DNA from: Cheilinus undulatus
Lineage: Eukaryota > Chordata > Actinopteri > Labriformes > Labridae
Assembly: GCF_018320785.1 (NCBI RefSeq)
Contig: NC_054867.1
Coordinates: 25,609,855-25,673,854, forward strand
Direction: 5' to 3'
DNA: 64,000 nt
The translations under genes were made by a program, and so were the position numbers. Of the stretch, positions 1,383 to 35,600 are shown one piece after another. Under the pieces are notes generated by a model. It did no database searches. It was not told the DNA's origin and saw only the letters and a program-made list of their open reading frames with translations. Each line of letters begins with the position of its first letter. The stretch's first letter is position 1.

Positions 1383-2650
1383 AGTTGTTCTGATTCCGAT
1401 ATCAGTATCAGAATATACCTGATACTCTTGAAAATGCAGGTGTTGGTATCAGAAAGTACAGTAGTTTATCACCAATTCAATACAGTTTTGTTAAACTTTA
1501 TATTTTGCTTGATTTAGCTATGCTACATGTTGGCATTATATGCACAAGAGCTAGCATTTTTAGAGCAGAACGAAGAAGAACAAAACGAAGGAGAAAAAAA
1601 GGACCCACTGCAGCAGGAAAGCTTGGAGTTAGAATGGCATTCATTATTCTCTGTATTTATTTGTTAAACATTTACAGATGGGTGTTGTCATATACAACAA
1701 AAAATGACAGGTTATAAAAAGTAAAAAAAAACAAAAAAACAACTTTTTTTAAGATGATATTTTTGAGCATTTTGTCTTTATTTCATAGGACAGCAGAGTA
1801 GAGACAGGAAACATGGGGAGAGAGAATGGGGGAATGCATGCACCAAACATGTGGCACAATATCTGGAGCATTAAAGCTGAGCCTTTTGACTCATTCACAA
1901 AGCTTTAGTGCGTGCACTTTATTGTAGAGCTTTCAAACAGCATCACATCATTTGGCTACCCAGATTCTAACAGGTTTATGCAGCACTGGTGACTCAAATT
2001 GATAAATAACTGCAATTAAAGTGTGATTTCTGTCAGCAACATGTGTCACATCTTCTGTGTTATCTTGTTTAATCTAAGTATGGAGAGGTGCTTTTTCATT
2101 AAAAATTGCTCAGTCGGATCAGAGATGGTGAAGCTGCTGCATCATCATATCTGGGCGTGTCAAATCTGTTCTTTGTGGACGTTTCAACGGAGTCTAGTTG
2201 TTTTCTGACTTACCTTTTTGAAAAACTCATTCCCAGACTGGCATTTTTTTTGTAAAAGAATAGTGTAACTCCTCTTCTCCACATCATTTCTTTAGTTCCA
2301 TCATAGTAAACATCTGCTTATATTTCTGGGACCCGCTTCCACCTGCAGTGGTGTCAAAACCACCCGCTCCCAGAAGATTCATTGGGTGCCTCGGGACCTA
2401 TGGGATCCTGCTCCCAATGCAGCCCTCATTAGAGAGTCTGTGATGTGGCCCTCTGTGTCATTGTTATTTTAATATTTAGCAGTAAAACTCATAATTGCAG
2501 AAAAAATAACTTTAAATGTTACAGAGAGGCTGTACATTACGATTCTATTTGTATGTTTGGAGTTTGGAGGTCCAGAAAGTTTACACCTGTATCTGATTGG
2601 TACTCAGTAAAGGCTGATACCCAGTGGTCTGGTATTGGAATCACAGGGTG
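1383..2650. repeat. Possible old non-autonomous DNA element
   Basis: The left end reads gagttgttctgattccgat followed by 'atcagtatcag'. The right end, near 2620-2650, reads 'ctggtattggaatcacag', which is roughly its reverse complement. Similar 'gtatcgg/gttctgat' ends occur on teleost interspersed repeats. A SINE-like piece sits inside. The boundaries and the pairing of the two ends are weak. Confidence 0.3.
1768..1862 (-). repeat. Reverse-oriented tRNA-SINE tail fragment
   Basis: The segment 'tttgtctttatttcatagg' followed by 'acagcagagtagagacagg' and 'atggggagagagaatggg' matches, in reverse, the tail of the SINE at 32081-32250. That copy carries the same 'caaataaaggca' and 'ctgtcctcc' type tail. 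The tRNA-like head is not recognisable here. Confidence 0.4.
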
Positions 2651-3613
2651 AGATATTAGAGCTGAAGTAGCTGAAGTATCAGTGATTGGAAAAATCAAAT
2701 GATTATTGGTCAAGTGCTGAATATCAGCCAGGCTGATAATTAGTCGAAACCTACACTATCACTGTCAGTAGCACTGATAGTGTACGTCATCACAGAGTTA
2801 CAATATCAAGAAGGATCAGTCTAGAGTTGTTCTGAACCTTGTAACAGTATTGGAGATATTCTCTCTTTCTCTCTGAAATAAAGGATTGGGTATAAACTGG
2901 ATCACCTGCTTATATGTTATCTGGTACCATTAATCGGTGATTTAATTTCACCAGAAGTTTTGTCATCTTTGCCACACAAAACAGTATCTTGAAGAGCAAG
3001 CTGCCCAATGCTGCCCCCATTAATGTCATGACTGCCATTAGCAATAAGTGCTAAATAGTGGCAATAAAGCACTAATGGCTGGTAATTATTTTGAATAAGA
3101 GAAGCAAACAATAGTGCTAGATGAGGGAGCTATGAAATTGTTAATAAAAATGTAAAAACATTGAATAAAGCAATTTTTCATAAGAATATTCATCTATGGT
3201 AAGCTCATTAGATGACACAAGTGTGAGAAAGATTTATGCTCTGTATTCAAAAATGGTTTTCATCATCCATAGTATATAAAAGAGTAAGTTCTAAAGATTT
3301 AATTTTCATATTCTATACCTGAGCCAGGCCATATAACAATGATGGCACTCGCCCTTACACTTACAGGGTTCGTAGTATGAGCTGTAGTTTTATAGTAGTA
3401 ATAATTTTAGCACTTTTTCTTTAAACCAGCTTTAGATCTGTGCCGTCCCTTGCAGGTTCAAAAACAGAACCGTAATGTAAAAAAATTACTATGACTTCAC
3501 TGATTTAGTTACTGACCTATTTTTCCTCCTTGATTTCTTTTTAAAACATCTCCTGCCATGCCACATGTGTTCATGTGTTTGTTTTTTTATCTGCTTGTGC
3601 GTGCATGTGACAG

Positions 3614-3835
3614 TGCTGTGATCTAGGCTACCATGCCAGCCTGCACCGTGCCCTGAGGACCTACCTGTCTGCAGAGCAAAATGTGGAGGCATCCAAACAC
3701 TCTGGCCTGGAGACACTGGAGGGAGCCGCAGAGAGTCTTGAGCCCAACGGGGACAAACAGAAGCTGATGGAGACCTACAATAACGTCTTCTGCCCTCCAG
3801 CTCGCTTTGACTTTCAGTCCCACATGGGAGACACG
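3614..3835 (+). CDS. srgap2: srgap2 exon: F-BAR C-terminal part
   Basis: This exon gives 74 whole codons, phase 0 at both ends, with acceptor 'tgacag' and donor ACG|gtacac. It encodes [18 protein letters not shown] and, near its end, [14 protein letters not shown]. Both are hallmarks of the srGAP F-BAR region. Confidence 0.93.
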
Positions 3836-6800
3836 GTACACTTGTCACACTAAAGGCATTATTATGAGCTGTGTCTTGAAAAGAAATCTTTGTGAGCTGA
3901 AATCTTCCCATGGTGAAGTGCTGTATCATTTATTCTTGTTAAGTGTTTCACTTTCCTTTGTGTGTGTAAATGCGAGTGTAGATGGGTGTGATGTGTGCAC
4001 AAGAGCCGGTGGAAGTCGAGCTACTCCAGAGATGTCAGCAGCTGCAGTCCCGCCTTTCCACACTCAAAATTGAGAATGAAGAGGTCTGACATCTTTCTTG
4101 TCCTTCTGATATTTTTCACTCATCTTGTTCATTGCCTGTTTCAGCTCTCTTGTGTTTTTGTTTTAAATCTTTTTGCTCAATAATGTTTTTATTTTCAGGT
4201 GAAGAAGACCATGGAGGCCACTCTGTCCACCATCCAGGACATGGTGACGGTTGAAGACTACGACGTCTCAGATTGCTTCCATCACAGCAACAGCATGGAG
4301 TCCGTCAAGTCCACCTTCAGCGAATCATATCTCAGTAAACCCAGCCTGGCCAAACGACGAGCCAATCAGCAGGAGACAGAGCAGTTTTACTTTACGGTGA
4401 GAACGAGTTCTGGCATTCAGCAACTTTTGAGGAGCAATCCTGTGACCTGCAAAGATATGCCTAAAACTCCTTTTAGGGGCTTTTGATTTGGACTGATTTT
4501 GACGCTCCCTGTGGACAGGATGGTACCTTTCATCTGTTCATTGTTTTTTCATTTCATAGATGTAGATCTATCCTGCTTTATTAATGTTTAACATAAACAT
4601 TAATAAATGTTGCCATGGGAAATTTAACAAAGGTGATTGGAGCTTGCTGTTAACTACCTTTTCTAGGCTCATACCGGTTCACTAGTATTCATTTTAGTCT
4701 GCTTCCTGACTAGCTTGAACTCCTTACAAGAGCTATAATCTGTGCACTTCTGACTCGAGTATCGATGTACTTTGTATGTTGTAGAAGCTGAAGGAGTTTC
4801 TGGAAGGCAGGAACTTGATCACGAAACTGGAGGCCAAGCATGACTTGATCAAGAAGACACTGGGAGAAAGTAAGCGCCATGTTGTCCTTCATATGTTTGT
4901 ATGCTGTGGATCAATACCATTTCTTAGTTTAACCCCTACTCATTATTTTGAGCGCCCCTTGCCCCTTGCTACAGAGTTACAAGAAGAAGTGGTGAGATTT
5001 TTGCCTGTGAAATGGGAAAACCCTTCAAACCCCTCATACATCATCAGTAGTCGTCAGCAGCGTTATAACAGAGACATGATGGGAACCCCTGGCATTTCCT
5101 CTACAGGCAGCTTTTTTAAATGTCCTTTCGAAATCAAGCGGACCATGATCCATTTATACAATGTTAGAATATAATCTTAGATTGTTATCATAATTTTCAA
5201 ATCTTGCCCATGATTGAGAGGGGGTTGACTACAGACTGTACATTTTGAATGGCCACTCTCATTGACTGTTCATCTCAGACACAGTATATCTCAGAAAAGA
5301 AGTGCCATAATTAGCAGTAGTCTGGCAGTTACATTCATTAAACTAGAAAAGCACTCAGAGAGCACAGACCTCCGCCATTAGCCCTATCTCCCAAAAGTGA
5401 AGAATCCTTTAAAAAATTCCTGGATCCATCCCCATGTGCCCCCCACCAGGGCATTCTGCGATGACTTCCTCCCCCGGTGGGGTGGAAACACAGTGAGGCA
5501 AAGCACTGGCTTTGCTACGGGTGGACTGTCATGTCGGAAGCATTGCCTGCTGGTGCCAACAGAGGCACTGACAGTCTCACCCACGGTCTCACTGGACGAC
5601 TGGAAGTCATGTTAGAGGGTGAATATTCCTCTGTTCCTCCCAACATTGTGAGTATTCTCGCTACAATTTGCTGTCTTTCTCTCTGTTACGCTTCGACTCG
5701 TCTCCTCAACCTGGCGTGCGTATTTCAAACTCTATAAACTCCAAAACTTTGAATGGAAATACAGTCAAAATGCTGCTGGGATTAAAGTTGCTCATGTCCG
5801 CCATCTCCTGGTGTTAAGTGGTAACAGCGCAGAGCTCTGCCATTAGCCCTACCTCCTAATAGTACAGAATCCTTTAAAAAATTCCTGGATCCAGACAGTG
5901 ATCCGGATCAGTCCCAAAATCTAATCAGTTCTTCCTTATACCATTTCTGACATTTCCTGAAAATTTCATCAAAATCCGTACATAACTTTTTGAGTTATAT
6001 TGCTAACAAACTCACAAACTAACTAACTAACCCACCCGATCACATAACCTCCTTGGCAGAGGTAATAACCACATAACAAACTATACAGACTAAGATCAGG
6101 GATAAAGTTATAAAGTTATGTATCAACACTAGCTATGCATTAATGTTACTAAACAAACCAATATAGCTATAAAGTAGCTTTAGCAAAGTGAAATGTAGCA
6201 TGCCTAGCTCAAGCTAATGTGGCTACTTAGATGAAATACCTACATAGCTTACAAAGCTGCTTACTGAGTTTAGCGTTAGCTATGCTAGCTATGTAGCTAA
6301 ATTTGCTAGATAGTCGCGTTTTCTATAGGTAAGCAATGTGAGCTTTATCAAATGTAGTTAAAGCCAGCTTCGCTATGTAGCTTATGCAGCGTATGTTGCT
6401 TATGTGGCTGCTTTGTGATCTTAGCTTTAGCTTCATTAGCTATGTAGCTTTTATCATGTAAACAGACTGTTTATAACCTGACACCAGATGGATTTGTTTC
6501 AGACATCCATCTGAAAATCCTCTAATACACAGCATTTGGGATAGGAAAGAACCTTGGACAAAAAAAAACTCAAGAGTGTGGTTGGATGAACGTTCTTTCT
6601 GTAACATTTTACGGGCCAGTCAGAGCAACAAAACACGTGACGTGGCCGCTAGCGAGGTGCGCCCCTATCGAAGAGTAAGTTCCATATAGAGCTGCATAGC
6701 GCGAACCATGGCGACTATAGACATGTCAGTATACAACTTTATTGTTTTTGAAGAGAAGAAAACTCAATGCTGTTCTTTGTTCTACTTTTAACGAAGAAAT

Positions 6801-9800
6801 GTCATCAAGTTCTGATAAAACTGGCACTTTAGCAGCATCCACACTAATGTCTTCCGCCATAATTGCACCGGCCTCTTGTTGCTGCTTGCATATGTCACAA
6901 CTCCGCCGTGCCCAAAGTACTGCCCCTTCTATTGGTCCTGTCACTTTCTAACCAGGCCCAAATGGTTCAGACTGGAGCTTTGTGAGATGGATTTGTCAGT
7001 GAGAAACAAGGAAACGTGCATATTCATCTGCTTTTGCAAGGTTGGACTGTTTACTCAGCTTCTTAAATGTTTTATCAGGTTTTAACTTTTCCTAACCATT
7101 ATCATAGTCTTTTCACTAACCCTAAATGAAAGTTTAATCAGATTTTATTTTGAAAGTTTTAGCATGTATTTCTGTTCTGAGATATACGGCGACTCAGATG
7201 CTGCCAAACTGTCCTGGCGTGATTTGCAACATTCTGGAAGATTTCCTCTAACACTCAGTTTTGAGTATGCTACTGGAAAAATCCCTATTAAAAGGGCCAT
7301 GTAGCCCTAGCACCTCACCCCAACCCTCCCTTCCAACAAGCAGGGACATCCTACCTTTTGGACGTGCACATGCAAAACATAGTGGTAGAGCCAAGTGTTG
7401 TGGACAAGGGGTGTATTGGGATCTAGCCAGGGTGCATCTTGTGCGTGTTTAGAGAGGGAGAGAAATGGGTGGCCCATGCAGGGAAGCAGAATAAGGTTAA
7501 TACATAAAGCATGTGTTTATTTGTGTGTGTATAGAAGGCAAGGTCACCGTGACAATAAACACATGTGGATGCAGCTGTGTGTTACAGCGGGAGGAAGTGG
7601 TCAAATGTGTCTGCTTTTCCCAACCTGACGGGAAACGCTCTCCTTCATCGTGTGTGTGTGGCTTATGTGAGAAGTTTGTTTCTCCGTCCATCTGAAACTG
7701 CTTCCTCACGTGTTCTGTTGCTACTATAACCATCTATCTCTCTTTTTCTCCTCCCCTCCCCCTCTTCCTGTCTATCCCTCCTTTAGGTCAGAAGACTGAC
7801 TGTTGCCTTGCCAGGTAGGTGTGGTGAAGGAAGGAAATATGCTCTTGCACACGCACGCACACATATATACCATAGCAAAGTTGAAGCTTGATTTCCTGGC
7901 AGCCTGGACTATTATTTTCCCCATGACTGTTTATAGATATTCTCAACACATGTGCATATGTGTCTGTGTATACAAATAGAGCGTTACCAGAGTTGTGAGT
8001 ATAAATAGACTTTCTCCGGAGACATAATGACAGAGTGCTGTTTTACTTTCTCTCCCCTCTCTCCTCTTGGCGTAGTGGACGGAGGAACTCTTCAGTACGG
8101 AAGCAGGTAATTATCTGACATAAGTGCACGTGTTTGTCTTTGAGTGGCTATCAGCTCGTCATTAATGGCCTCAGAGCTTTGTAGTTTAACTCAAGCCATA
8201 TGTTTTCTCACAGAATCCTCAATTTTAGCTCGTAAAAGGCTGACAGAGATTTGGTTGTGATCACTAGTACTGACACTCTAATTCAAACATTTATATCTAC
8301 TGTTGAACATGTGCAGTTTGTTGTTGCACAGACATGAAGGCTAACACAACACAAAAGTGATCAAAAGAATCCCTCATTAGGGAACTCCATGATTGGAGCT
8401 CCCCCTTGTGGTCAAAGTGCAATATGACCATTTTCTCTCTTAAAAGCGTTTTCCAAATTCCTCGCTAAATTCTTGTTCATTTCTAATAAAAGCTGAAATA
8501 TAAAAAAGATGTATCTTATTTCCAACCTGTTAAAGCCTCAGCTCCACAAAGTTAAGGATGCATGTTCTCTGACATCCACTCCCTGCCATACCTCCTGGTG
8601 ATTTCTGGAAATCCCAAATAAACAAAGGAAAAGAAAAAAAAGGCACTGTCTCCTAGCAACTGCTGACTACTGCGCCCAATATCTACCCCATACACACAAA
8701 CGTGTGCTCCAGTGCATGTGTTGGGAAATCCTCTTGACAAGAAGTGTGTATTAATTTCCAGCCTCTCATGTCGTCTTCCTCTATCGGGACTAATTCTTCT
8801 CCTTCCTCTATTTTAGGACTCGGGTGAAGCCATTCCTTTGATGGTGGAGAGCTGCATCCGCTTTATCAGTCGCCATGGTGAGGGAAATGTTCCTGTGGTT
8901 TACGATTTGCTTTTTCCCTACACTGATAAGATGAAATGTAACGTGACTGGACTTGTTGACATGTATTCTAATTCTTAATATACAAAACACACAATCTCTG
9001 GAGCTTTAAAATTGTTAGTATTAATAATTGCATGTTAATCTTTGTTTAGGTTTGCAGCATGAGGGCATTTTCAGAGTTTCAGGCTCTCAGGTTGAAGTCA
9101 ATGACATCAAAAATGCTTTTGAGAGAGGTAAGACTAAGCTGAAAGGAGACAAACTTATCAAAACAAGCAAAGTTTTTCCAGCACTTTATTGTCTTTTTTC
9201 TCCCTCTCCTTCTTCCTCCCACTTCTCTGTATCTTCCTGTCCGGATGTAGGTGAGGACCCGCTGGCAGGGGACCAGAATGACCATGACATGGACTCCATC
9301 GCTGGCGTCCTAAAGCTCTACTTTAGAGGACTGGACCAAGCCCTTTTCCCTAAGGAAGTGTTCCATGATCTCATATCCTGTGTCTGTGAGTCCGTCATCC
9401 TTTTGTCTGTTTTGTGAGTGTATGTTTCTGTTCCTGACTGTGTGAGTAATCTCCTGGGTGTCATGGTTGCGTTTATTTTCCAGCGATGGAGAGTCTGCAG
9501 GAGCGAGCAGTCCACATCAAGAAAGGTCTGCAATCCCTGCCGAGCAAAACACTCATTGTTATGAGATACCTGTTTGCTTTCCTCAATCAGTGAGTAACCC
9601 TTACACATACACATGAACACAGTAAAAATCTGGTGTAAACCAGTAGATTCAGATAAAAAATATACATCTGCTTAATTTTAAAACGGTTAGTTTTGAACAA
9701 GATATTACTTCTAAGTAACAAAGTCAAGTCAGCAGTTTAACTGTAAAACAGGAGTAAACTCCCCATTGTTTAATATTTGAGTTTCACAGTACCTCAGACT

Positions 9801-29600: not shown

Positions 29601-32600
29601 TACCTCACAGCTGCCAACTCTCACAGTATGTCACATCATAAAGAGCTCTTAGTATGCATTTAAGTAACTCTTTCATGAAAATATTTGATATCTCTTCATT
29701 GATTCCATCTCTTTCCCCCCTGTTCTGACTCTTTTGTACTGTCTGCAGAGGTCTGACAGTGCAGGTGGTGCCAGTACTGGCAGGCATACTGGAGGCTGAT
29801 CAGGACAGGTGCTGGGGTTTTGATCAGTTCTTTACAGCGACCACAGACATCCTGCAGCGACAGCCGGTTCACCTCTTCTCTTTGCAGCAGGCCCAGGCAC
29901 ATTGCATCTACATACACCACTACAGCACGTAAGTATCTAGATAAGCATAACATCCCACACAAATCTAACACAAATGAAACAGAGTCATGCTTTTTCTCGC
30001 TTGGAGTGGATATCTGTAGGTTACTACAAACACAGTACACATGAAAGGTCGGCTAAAAATAATGCCAATGAAGCCTGTTTCTTGATTCGATTTTTGGGTT
30101 TTGTGTAAAATTATGTAAATTTTGGCTTTTTTCTTCTGTTTTTTGTTGTTCCAATGCACACACACTAAATGAATATATGTATACCAAAAACATTTGTAAT
30201 TGCAACAATTTCTGGGAGAAATGGTGTATTTTCTGGAAAAATTCCAGGGATGCCAATACTTTTTGTCCATGACTTTACCTATAGCCTTTATCTATGCGCA
30301 ACTCACTGTAATTCAGAGGTCTTAATTTTTTGGCTCTTTAAAATATTTCATCCAAAAATAAATAATAATTTTAAAAAAAGATGCATTATGTGTTGAATAT
30401 ATGTCTTTGTAATTCTAAAATTTATTGCCATTGTAGTAAAAATTTCAAGTCAGAATTTGCACATGAGCTAAGGTTTTCAAAACTTTCATTATTTTTGAAA
30501 CTAAAGTTTTGTCTTCTAGCTGCCAGTCTCAACTGGGCCAGCCTCAGGACCCACAACCAACTCCTTAATAGGAATTGCAACCAAAATTTCCATAAAAATT
30601 TCAACCACCCAAATTTATTAAATGAAAGCATTGCTGTTTGCACCTTGGACGGGACAAAAACATATGACTGAACAAAGAGACAGAAAAAACATGGTTAAAA
30701 AAAATGAATTGCATCATTATAAAAGCTCAAGGAGGAAATTCGTGTTTCATGTAATTGTGAGAAATGTTTAAATGTTTTTAGAGAGCTTGAGTTCTAAACA
30801 CATTATCATTGTAAAACCAAGCTTGTTATCTGAAGATAAGATAAAGTTGAAATCATGAGAAAAAAAATACTTATCATGGCAAAATGAAGTAAAACAAGAT
30901 ATATATAAGTGTATCACAGCTTTGGGCTTCCATACATCATAGACTTGTTTTTTCGCCCAGGCTCTCTTCATGACCCACTGAGACAGCTTTGCAGCCTACT
31001 CTTTGGTCCTGACCAACCAACTGAAAATCACTGCTCTAAAATCTTAGAAGACAAAGGGATGCACTGATGCATCACTTTAACATCAGTATCTGCCAATATC
31101 AGTCTAGCTGACAAATATCGGCCATCTGCAGATAATGTGGCATGAATGGATACTGGTAAGCAGTGATTGCTTCTGAATCTAATAAGGGGTTTTCTACTGG
31201 GCAGAAGAAGTCATCAGTTGAACAGACTGATCTGTTTTCATGGTCAAATGTTGCCTTTGTAGGAGGCTCACACTAAAAGAAGTAATGAAAAGACATCACT
31301 CTCAGTAATTGTCTTGTTTTTTTAGTATTAGCGAAGGCCCACATTTTCAGAATCTTTAAAAACATGTCAACATCTCCACACAAACATGTAGGAAGGTGCA
31401 AAATGTTATCTGATTGCCGCTGAAGTTGCGCTCCTTCTTGCCCTCTGTCACAGCTACAATAACACTAGCAGCTCTCAGTCACTGATTGGCAAATAAGTTT
31501 GGTAAAATCCTTTCAGAACTCAAAGATGCACTCCCTTAGTGTTAGTTTCTGTTTCAAACAGAGATAGCGGAGAAGATAAGTGAAATAATCGTTCAAATGG
31601 TGATACAAGCATGAAATTTGGTACATGTACTCTTCAAAGCCTACTTAAAAAAACAAAAACAAAAAAAACGCTGGCCACGCAAAAATCCATGGCGACCATT
31701 TTCCAAGATGGCCGACACATCACACTGAGCCCCATTGTAATGGGTTAAAAAATTGAAGGAAAAAAAACGCAATTATTGTCCAAGTCTAGGTTTTTAGATA
31801 CTAAGATGGCAAGTGAAGATAATTTTGTCCATGGCAGTTGCATATTAAACTTTAACCAAGATGGCGTCCAAGATGGCTGCTTCAAAAGACAAATTTCGCA
31901 ATATCTCAGCTACTTATAGAGATAGAAAAATGATTTTGTGTCTAATCCTATCTTTTTCAAGTCAGAGAATCTAATGGACTTGTTCCATTTGCCATAAAGG
32001 CTACCTGAACTGCTGCATCAAAAATGGCATTAAGGATGTCTGCCATCAAACATTTATTTTCATTTAAAATGTTGCTGGATGCGCCAGTAGTCGAGTGGTG
32101 AAGGTGCACACCATGTACGCGAGCAGCCCGGGTTCGAATCCGGCCTGAGGTCCTTTGCATGTCTCTCCCCCACTTTCGCCCCTGTTTCTGAGTTGATCCA
32201 CTGTCCTCCCCTATCCAAATAAAGGCACAAAAAGGCCCAAAAACAAATATATATATATAGCCTATTTTGTTTGTTCCTGCCTTCCAAAGTTATTTATCCA
32301 AAAAAGGAAAAATACACAGATGTATGCATATCCTGGCTTAAAACCCATAATTTCAAGGTTAGGTAATTCAAAGGAAAACTTTATAAAAAACTTAAAGTTT
32401 TAAATTCATTCAAAGATTTTGTCAGCTGCCATGTTAGTTCCACAAGAAGGCCAAAGTTCAGCGATGCTACACTGTTCATTTCATTGTACTTCTAATGGAT
32501 GTAAAAGTAATCAAGAATGTCTCAATCAGAACCAGCAACGATCTTTGTAGTCAAGAATGTGGCATCGATTTATCGGTTAATGTAACCCTTTACGAATAAT

Positions 32601-35600
32601 GTAGGTCCCGAGAAAAAAAAAAAACCAGAGCCCTATAATAATTCTTACTCTTTCATCGTACTTGTTATGTATGTCAAAAGTAATCAAGAATGCTTCAGTA
32701 AGAACCAGCAGTGACCTTTGTAGTCAAGAATGTTGCATTTGCATCGATTTATTGGTTAATACAACCCTTTAGGGTGATGAAATAATTTTCACGTGAATTG
32801 AATAGTGCAGGTGCCAAGGAAAAAATAATAACACAGCCATATAGTAATGATTTTTATCTTTTTTTACCATCATAAATAACTACCAAGGTATAAACTCAAA
32901 GGTACATTTTGGTACCCAATGTGCGCTGACAATAGTGACTATTACACTATGGCGTTTAAAAATAAAAGATAAATAAAAACATTTCAAAAAGATGAATAAA
33001 TAAACAAGTAATAAAAAGAGAATGAATTGAACTGACACATTTTTTTTATGTCACACTAACCCACAAAGGTCATACTGTAAATACTAAAACTTCTCGAAGT
33101 GACAGAAGTTCTTACTGATGGTGCATAGGAATGGTGCATAGGAAAAAAACACACGTGTATATATACATTCATGTTAGTACAAATAAGCACCATGATTAGA
33201 AATAAAGATAAAGAAGTTTTAAAAAGATGCCAGAGGAGTAAAGAGTCACACCTCACATTTGCAAGTGCACAGAGCTGTACAGGTGAGACCCAGCCTGTAG
33301 CACTTGCACCTGCCACGACAGCCTGATTTACAGCCGCATTTGGTCAGCTGTTGGCAGCTCTTGGCTATGGGGGAGTTGGCTGTCCAGAAGACCTGCCATT
33401 CTTCACCAACCCTCTGCCATCCCCAGTCAGCAGGACTCTCTGCTTCTGGCTGAGACCTGGTTGCCGGGCCCAAACATGGCCAGCCTGGTAGGCAGCACGC
33501 CTGGTGTGCTGGAGCAGAGCTGCTCTGGTTGGTGAAATTGCCTCGTAAGGCCTCTGCTTTCTGGCAAACATGTCAAGTCTGGCCTCGTCCACAGTGGCAG
33601 CAGTGCTGGACCTGTCATCCATCAGTATGACAAACTTCTCCAGTATCTCCAGGTCGCCATCTTCCACTGTGAGAGGGTACTGGCTCAGCTTGGAGAAGAC
33701 AGGAGAGGCCTCCGGACAAATGTCCCATGTTTGCCAGGCAGTTTTCTTGCCCCTGTTGCGGAAGGCTGTCACTTAAGTCCTGTGTGATCTGTACACCATC
33801 CGGGTAACTACATGAGCAAGTCATGTAGAGCCCCCTTACCCTTGGCTCAGCTGTCCCACGCTGGCACGCCCTGTCAGTTCAGGTGCAGCTATCTAACACC
33901 TACCTATTTAATACCTACCAACTACTGTTTACTAGCTAATTGATTTGGGGCTGTTAGCATTTGGGGCACGAAACTAAACTATACTACAACTACTAGTCTA
34001 ATACTACAGTATTAGTAAAACTAGATCAGCTGACACTGAACACCATGCTGACTTACACAGCAGCGATGTCACCAGTGTGCCCTGGTTGTTTCCTGACATT
34101 CACTCTATTGCATTTGTAAGCTCTCATCATTGACTCAGTTCTGTACTTAAAAAATGTGAAAATGGCTCCATTGGATTCTACGACCCAAAAAATGTATGTG
34201 CACACCAAAAAATCATGTATATATGTTCAGAAGTTGCCGAGGTATGAATACTTTAAATTAATGGCAGCCATCTTGGATGCCATCTTTGTAATCAAATTTT
34301 ATATTATGACAATAATAATTTTATGTTATGACAATGATTAAAAAAACTCAAACATTTTTGTCTTCAAAAAAATCATTATGCAACAGTTTAAAAAATGAAA
34401 TAAAGCAAAATGTGGTCAGGCAAGGCAGCCAGCTTGGAAAATGGTCACCATCTTGGATTTTTATGTGGCCAGCATTATTTTTGAAAAGAGTAGACCTCGA
34501 AGAGCACATGTACCAAATTTCATGCTTGTATCACTATTTGAACGATTCTTGTGAAATCTGCAATTATCCGCTGCACTAAGAGCAGAGACTCAGAGATGTC
34601 AACAGATCCTTCTGTTTTCTTTAAGTCATGACCTTCAGACTCAGACTGTTGAGTGTGCTTTTTAGACTGCTGCACAAATGCTGACACCAATAAATTGTCC
34701 TAAGTAAGAAATTTAGGTCATGTAGACAGAGAGAAAACCACTTCATAAACTTCTTTTGGATCACCAATGATGAATCAAGATGAAATATTTTAGCTTTGAT
34801 ATTCACTCTTTTTAGGGAAAATTACTACAAACACTTCAATTTTAAATAATAAAAAAACTACAGTTTTGGGTTCTGAGCTTATTTTCTGTTTTGGTGATAT
34901 TGAAACAAGATCAATGTCTGATTTTTACTAGAATCACATCAAAAGTCAAATTCTGTTATTGCGACAACTACTATTAACAGAGAGAAAACTGCAGTTGTTA
35001 AGTGAGCCAGGTAGTACGACAAAAGGTTTACATAAGCATCTATAGAGGTACACAACATGTTATTTTAGAACTTTTCCTGCAGGAACTTTTCCTGTTTTAA
35101 AATTGTTACAGGTACTGCTCCCCTCAGACTGGCTAAAACATCAGCAGGGGGCGCCAAAAATCTTTGATATTCTTAAATGTCAAGAGCTGGAGTTTATTCG
35201 AAATGAAAATGGCTTTAACTGACCTTTGACAAGTTTATTTTCTAACCTGCAGGTGCAAAACACCTCCCTAAAACATGTAGGAAAGATGAAAAGCTTTTGA
35301 TCTCCAAATTCAACCCTATTTTTTGGTTTCAATTTCAAAGGGCTTTGTGTTCATGGCTAGATGCATATACTGCTATGCAAATTGTATTCTCCTGAACTGA
35401 CCTTTAGATGAATCATGCCTGCTCAGTCTGTGTTATTGTTTACTTCACAGCATGAGTCAAGAGTAGGAGAGGTCTGAAATGAAGTGAATTTAAAGGAGGT
35501 GGTACAAAGTGGGATGTTGGTATTTAGTTGAAAATTAGGGGAGTTATACAACATGACTCACTCAGTTGATGACACATCAGGAAGCTAAAATGTGAAACAT

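Follow-up and report, generated by a model that had tools for sequence, protein, structure and literature searches.

The Academ superfamily of DNA transposons and its AcademX lineage are said to go back to Kapitonov and Jurka (2010) and Kojima (2020), and AcademH reportedly to Kojima (2020). The AcademX nuclease is of the XPG type. The target-site duplications of Tc1/mariner, hAT and piggyBac elements are TA, 8 bp and TTAA, respectively, and 3-bp duplications are also made by PIF/Harbinger and CACTA (EnSpm) elements, those of PIF/Harbinger being TWA and the ends of CACTA/EnSpm elements reading 5'-CACTA...TAGTG-3'. A portion of PMC10045372 gives duplications of 3 or 4 bp for AcademX and of 9 or 10 bp for AcademH, and ties this difference to the nuclease of AcademX and the helicase of AcademH. 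Academ is counted as one of 17 DDE/D superfamilies in an excerpt of PMC10294476, and an excerpt of PMC4746887 reports it in zebrafish, medaka and stickleback, three of four teleosts. AcademX itself is little described in the literature searched. Here we describe a mobile element of 3,014 bp at 31565-34578 of a 64,000-nucleotide stretch of Cheilinus undulatus DNA (the window), which is very probably an AcademX-like cut-and-paste DNA transposon, AcademX being compared by its description, and probably represents a known but little-studied transposon kind.

The limits of the element follow from the target-site duplication, which reads AGA in the window (31562..31564, directly before TAGCGG, and 34579..34581 in the duplication analysis); the 3' end had been placed at 34573 by the sequence-only reading, and the duplication moves it to 34578. 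The left inverted arm (31565..31990, plus strand) was delimited by arm alignment and by the start positions of genome copies, and the right inverted arm (34150..34578, minus strand, ending in CTGCACTA) by arm alignment, genome copies and the duplication. Diverged inverted arms had been claimed from the letters, together with a proposal to align 31565-31990 with the reverse complement of the right arm. This alignment, run against 34150-34578, confirmed the arms with 287 of 391 aligned bases identical, compared with a mean of 62% and a maximum of 67% identity in 50 shuffles, and a local alignment scored 105, where the best of 200 simple shuffles scored 19. Conservation is stronger over the outer ~150 bp of the arms, which make up the terminal inverted repeat and agree at 118 of 142 bases. 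The minus-strand, frame-broken ORF with a cysteine-rich end was likewise found, at 33246..33772 in two frames, and represents a C-terminal protein remnant comprising the end of a predicted FEN-like nuclease domain and a cysteine-rich tail. It is flanked by non-coding interior on its 3' side (32247..33245, common to other copies) and on its 5' side (33773..34149). As to the host gene, plus-strand exons of a TBK1/IKBKE-type kinase were detected near 26.7 and 29.2 kb, with all 12 listed structure matches being TBK1; a further exon at 23.9 kb was recognised by motif only, and a later one is likely at 37.1 kb, as judged by eye. The element sits between the exons at 29.2 and 37.1 kb with its ORF antisense to the kinase gene, which upholds the intronic position originally assigned to it.

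The window's own genome (G000, 1.17 Gb) was searched for the arms and the ORF. For the left arm, 40 of 125 candidates were scored and gave 42 matches, corresponding to 40 places (window included) and two small extra pieces, and the other 39 listed left arms were 81-91% identical to that of the window. In 33 of these 39 copies the match started at query position 9-11 (31564-31566), which defines the left end. The right-arm search, in which 40 of 140 candidates were scored, yielded 45 matches. For 29 of the 40 listed left arms, the right-arm list has an equally oriented partner 1,045-8,565 bp away, and 21 of these 29 pairs enclosed an ORF match, every time antisense to the left arm. These copies bear out the proposal that arms and ORF form one mobile unit. 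The sequence-only reading had pointed out that genomic arms without the ORF, or the ORF without arms, would mark the two as unrelated insertions, here nested by chance. Both are seen in part, though not to a degree that refutes the unit: eight of the 29 pairs held no listed ORF match, and 25 of 75 ORF matches had no listed arm within 9 kb. However, six of the eight ORF-less pairs were fetched and all six carry interior sequence of the element, so that we read such pairs as further deletions; of the 25 isolated ORF matches, 22 do not exceed 45% identity and the others are three short pieces of 50-74%, and we read them as other families. The remaining 50 matches, including all of the best 27, have a listed arm no more than 9 kb away, the ORF keeps a single fixed orientation within 21 of the 29 pairs, and both arms are present in a copy that bears the full-length coding region. 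Chance nesting is thus a negligible prospect, and the arms and the ORF form one mobile unit. ORF matches were also found within 9 kb of three of the 11 left arms and eight of the 11 right arms that lacked a listed partner; since the lists hold the best candidates only, these arms may have unlisted partners.

Ends were examined in the 20 copies closest to the window left arm among the 39 and in two longer ones, a sample that leans to the close kin of the window copy because it was chosen by left-arm likeness. Among these 22 fetched copies and the window, both ends were readable in 14, six lacked an end and three had a damaged right end. Copies mostly begin with TAGTGGAGCAG... and end with ...GCTGCACTA or ...CACTGCACTA. 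An exact 3-bp duplication outside TAGTG...CACTA was present in 11 of the 14 copies, with 0.62 expected from mismatched pairs, and was lacking in L011, L012 and L019. A 2-bp duplication fitted one of the 14, and one of 4 or 5 bp fitted none, so there is no longer duplication, such as the 9- or 10-bp one of AcademH. The duplicated sequences were TTA (three times) and AAA, GTA, TAA, GAA, TAT, CAG, ACA and AGA (once each). Almost every copy has TA at either end; taking TA as the duplication fails to explain the three further matching bases outside it. Tc1/mariner, hAT and piggyBac are excluded by these varied 3-bp duplications, in agreement with the earlier impression that the element does not fit Tc1, hAT or piggyBac. 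A member of PIF/Harbinger or CACTA would account for the 3-bp length, for the four of 11 duplications that are TTA or TAA and for a right end reading CACTA. This assignment is nevertheless very improbable, as the other seven (AAA, GTA, GAA, TAT, CAG, ACA and AGA) do not follow the TWA of PIF/Harbinger, the ends read 5'-TAGTG...CACTA-3', the reverse of CACTA elements, and the protein carries a predicted FEN-type nuclease.

A full-length sister copy (L032) has arms as in the window copy, measures 8,565 bp end to end and is flanked by an ACA duplication. Its pieces match all of the database protein P0237 (1,105 aa) and, in comparison with P0248, about 225 residues upstream, giving a full protein length of about 1,100-1,300 aa. 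L032 is itself frame-broken: its coding region contains several frame changes, one in-frame stop and a ~600-bp gap, possibly an intron or inserted sequence. Compared with L032, the window copy lacks about 6.27 kb, corresponding to positions 1601 to 7868 of the sister copy, and the match resumes from 7868 in the 5' non-coding interior. Because L032 has the same arms and holds the whole coding region in pieces, the window copy derives from such an element by internal deletion. It keeps about the last 175 codons, which comprise the predicted C-terminal helices of the nuclease and the cysteine tail. All eight conserved acids of the nuclease are missing from its frames, as judged by eye, and therefore it makes no working enzyme; the window copy is dead and non-autonomous. 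The deletion junction, located at 33767..33772 by comparison with L032 and other copies, shows a few bases of microhomology at most, by eye. The window and 13 of the 20 fetched copies span it, and it is absent from L031 and L032. With a junction probe, L014 matched on one side only, L018 retained about 205 bp more and five of the 20 fetched copies gave no match. Both ends were readable in 10 of the 13 junction copies, and seven of these 10 have their own 3-bp duplication and different flanks. The recurrence of the same junction in 13 of 20 copies suggests that the deleted form probably transposed by means of protein supplied in trans.

The window copy also contains a tRNA-like SINE at 32071..32246 (plus strand, approximate borders), with a box-B-like GGTTCGAATCC at 32131. 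The SINE was named from its letters alone, and Rfam and ARAGORN returned no match over 31000-35200. The window shares this filled site with nine of the 20 fetched copies, and the site is empty in seven of the 20 and in L032. The insertion is partial in L017 and interrupted in L022, and L013, L015 and L031 were uninformative. A left-arm tree (n=23), built to see whether the SINE-bearing copies form one clade and with L017 scored as bearing the SINE and L022 as lacking it, was star-like, with 17 of 20 inner branches open and a bootstrap that had yet to settle; the tree required six changes of SINE label, and 62 of 500 shuffles were equally low. The SINE-carrying form appears to have spread along with the element.

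Structure models were made for the 429-aa ORF of L031 and for the relative P0242; both match EXO1/FEN1/XPG, and clustered acidic residues are conserved in this region. As far as the models go, they show a FEN1/EXO1/XPG-type fold for the nuclease domain. Foldseek alone was weaker: TM-scores for the L031 model reached at most 0.54 among the FEN/XPG-type matches, with rmsd up to 23 Å, and for a full-length model no match reached E 0.001 (best 2.4e-3). The C-terminal tail has the cysteine spacing CxCx3Cx3CxCx6Cx3CxCxC, similar to that of Tesmin/TSO1-type CXC proteins, after which several database relatives are named. Pfam gave no match to the tail piece at E 10, a search in which the HMMER filters drop most weak matches. 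The CXC-like tail probably binds DNA. DDE transposases carry their catalytic residues in a first strand, after a later strand and in a helix. In the N-terminal half, a triad that we chose was conserved in every sequence reaching the position (D65 in 10 of 10, D236 in 49 of 49 and E458 in 67 of 67), and D68, D454 and H267 are equally conserved. In the model, the first part of which is of low confidence, D65 falls in the first strand (59-68), D236 just after a later strand (232-235) and E458 in a helix (453-465). These positions are suggestive of a DDE transposase. No transposase fold was present among the structure matches listed, which were filled by the nuclease domain and therefore carry no weight for the N-terminal half, and none of the returned relatives consisted of the N-terminal half alone.

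Relatives of the encoded protein were abundant, with 152 of 182 candidates for the tail reaching E 1 or better, 622 for the L031 ORF at E 1e-5 among 3,415, and at least 461 for the 716-aa P0168 at E 1e-5 among 7,996 scored. Names were taken from the best 120 of each listing, as labelled by the sources. Among the matches listed, long relatives (about 800-1,200 aa) came from Synaphobranchus and Labeo, Myxine, Branchiostoma, Ciona and Amphimedon, and shorter ones from other fishes, crab, cuttlefish and sea cucumber; we take Synaphobranchus and Labeo to be fishes, Myxine a hagfish, Branchiostoma an amphioxus and Amphimedon a sponge. Related loci sought by pattern comprised 37 stretches in viral contigs and 53 in genome contigs, none of which was confirmed. 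The search of the cysteine-rich ORF against profile databases, as proposed in the sequence-only reading, left the tail without a Pfam match and gave only partial DUF6589 for its relatives, in five of nine long proteins (four above the cut-off) and, below the cut-off, in one of another set of 10. Other weak Pfam matches of the ORF and its relatives were taken as chance. Pfam XPG or CXC was found in none of 28 protein scans, NCBIfam gave nothing of weight and one weak match for the nine long proteins, and sequence profiles had no significant match to solved structures (best E 0.51, and 7.6 in a second search). The label 'unassigned' holds for Pfam and NCBIfam, but not for transposon classification, in which AcademX-like is the best name for the element. 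The sparse profile matches could also fit a separate, uncatalogued superfamily that came to resemble AcademX in its XPG-type nuclease and 3-bp duplication by convergence or nuclease capture, all the more as AcademX is known to us by description, namely duplication length and 'nuclease' in a portion of PMC10045372. We regard this as unlikely, since nuclease and duplication both fit AcademX and Academ has already been reported in zebrafish, medaka and stickleback, according to the excerpt of PMC4746887.

From an AcademX-like identity, the following course can be proposed. The full-length copy (8.6 kb) would encode one large protein with a probable DDE transposase half, a FEN1/EXO1/XPG-type nuclease and a CXC-like tail. 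This protein would recognise and bind the long inverted arms, cut the element out and reinsert it elsewhere with a stagger of 3 bp. The nuclease would trim or cut 5' flaps at the element ends or the target gap. The window form would have arisen by loss of the ~6.3 kb interior and then been mobilised in trans to many sites, and the SINE-bearing form would have spread as well. The unit, its ends, the 3-bp duplication, the full-length sister, the deletion junction common to many copies and the nuclease fold of the models are observed; transposase catalysis, the nuclease and tail functions, trans-mobilisation and the joint spread of the SINE are predicted. More tentatively, we propose that one polypeptide unites a DDE transposase with a flap nuclease of FEN1 type and a DNA-binding, CXC-like tail, and that the nuclease, far from being a passenger, performs a catalytic transposition step. 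Candidate steps are non-transferred-strand cleavage, flap removal and the 3-bp gap processing that other transposons leave to host repair. We give this proposal somewhat less than an even chance.

If a transposase-like protein does include its own flap nuclease, it becomes possible to test whether a transposon can bring along an enzyme for end processing or gap repair. From the window copy and its full-length sister come exact ends, target duplications and a structure-based view of the nuclease, one missed by Pfam and NCBIfam; they also suggest an identity for several animal database proteins named 'hypothetical' or 'Tesmin/TSO1-like CXC'. The putative nuclease resembles FEN1, EXO1, XPG and GEN1 in model fold and conserved acids, but has only about 9-14% identity to them in structure alignments, forms one protein with a transposase-like half and a tail rich in cysteine, and lacks a Pfam XPG match. 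AcademH, which belongs to the same superfamily as AcademX in the portions of the literature cited above, differs in its 9-10 bp duplications, against 3 bp here, and in its helicase, for which Pfam gave no match in the nine long proteins. The element shares with AcademX the 3-bp target duplication (11 of 14 copies) and an encoded nuclease, of FEN/XPG-type fold in the model, and the window copy differs from AcademX as a non-autonomous deletion derivative.

The window's AcademX-like transposon copy (31565-34578) carries an inserted tRNA-like SINE at 32071-32246. Among the 20 fetched copies, which are those of 39 most similar to the window's left arm and thus lean toward close kin, this site was filled in nine and empty in seven. 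The non-coding interior of the element also contains two diverged tandem units (32503-32771) with a spacing of about 173 bp, which are present in other copies of the transposon as well. In four copies from the same genome (L012, L013, L016, and L029), a second internal deletion was found, and its breakpoints were nearly identical in all four, suggesting that a nested deletion lineage lies behind it.

Downstream of the element in L031, a longer copy, what look by eye to be pieces of a Tc1-like transposase ORF lie at L031:5411-6044. When the 429-aa ORF of L031 is aligned with P0142, a Labeo rohita protein labelled as a venom prothrombin activator subunit, the match covers 86% of the query and 54% of residues are identical; P0142 is probably a transposon protein under a wrong name. 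P0283, a MAG protein ascribed to Sedimenticola, shows 44% identity over 99% to P0168, a 716-aa relative of the transposon protein, and matches the animal transposon family; its source is probably animal DNA within the Sedimenticola MAG bin.
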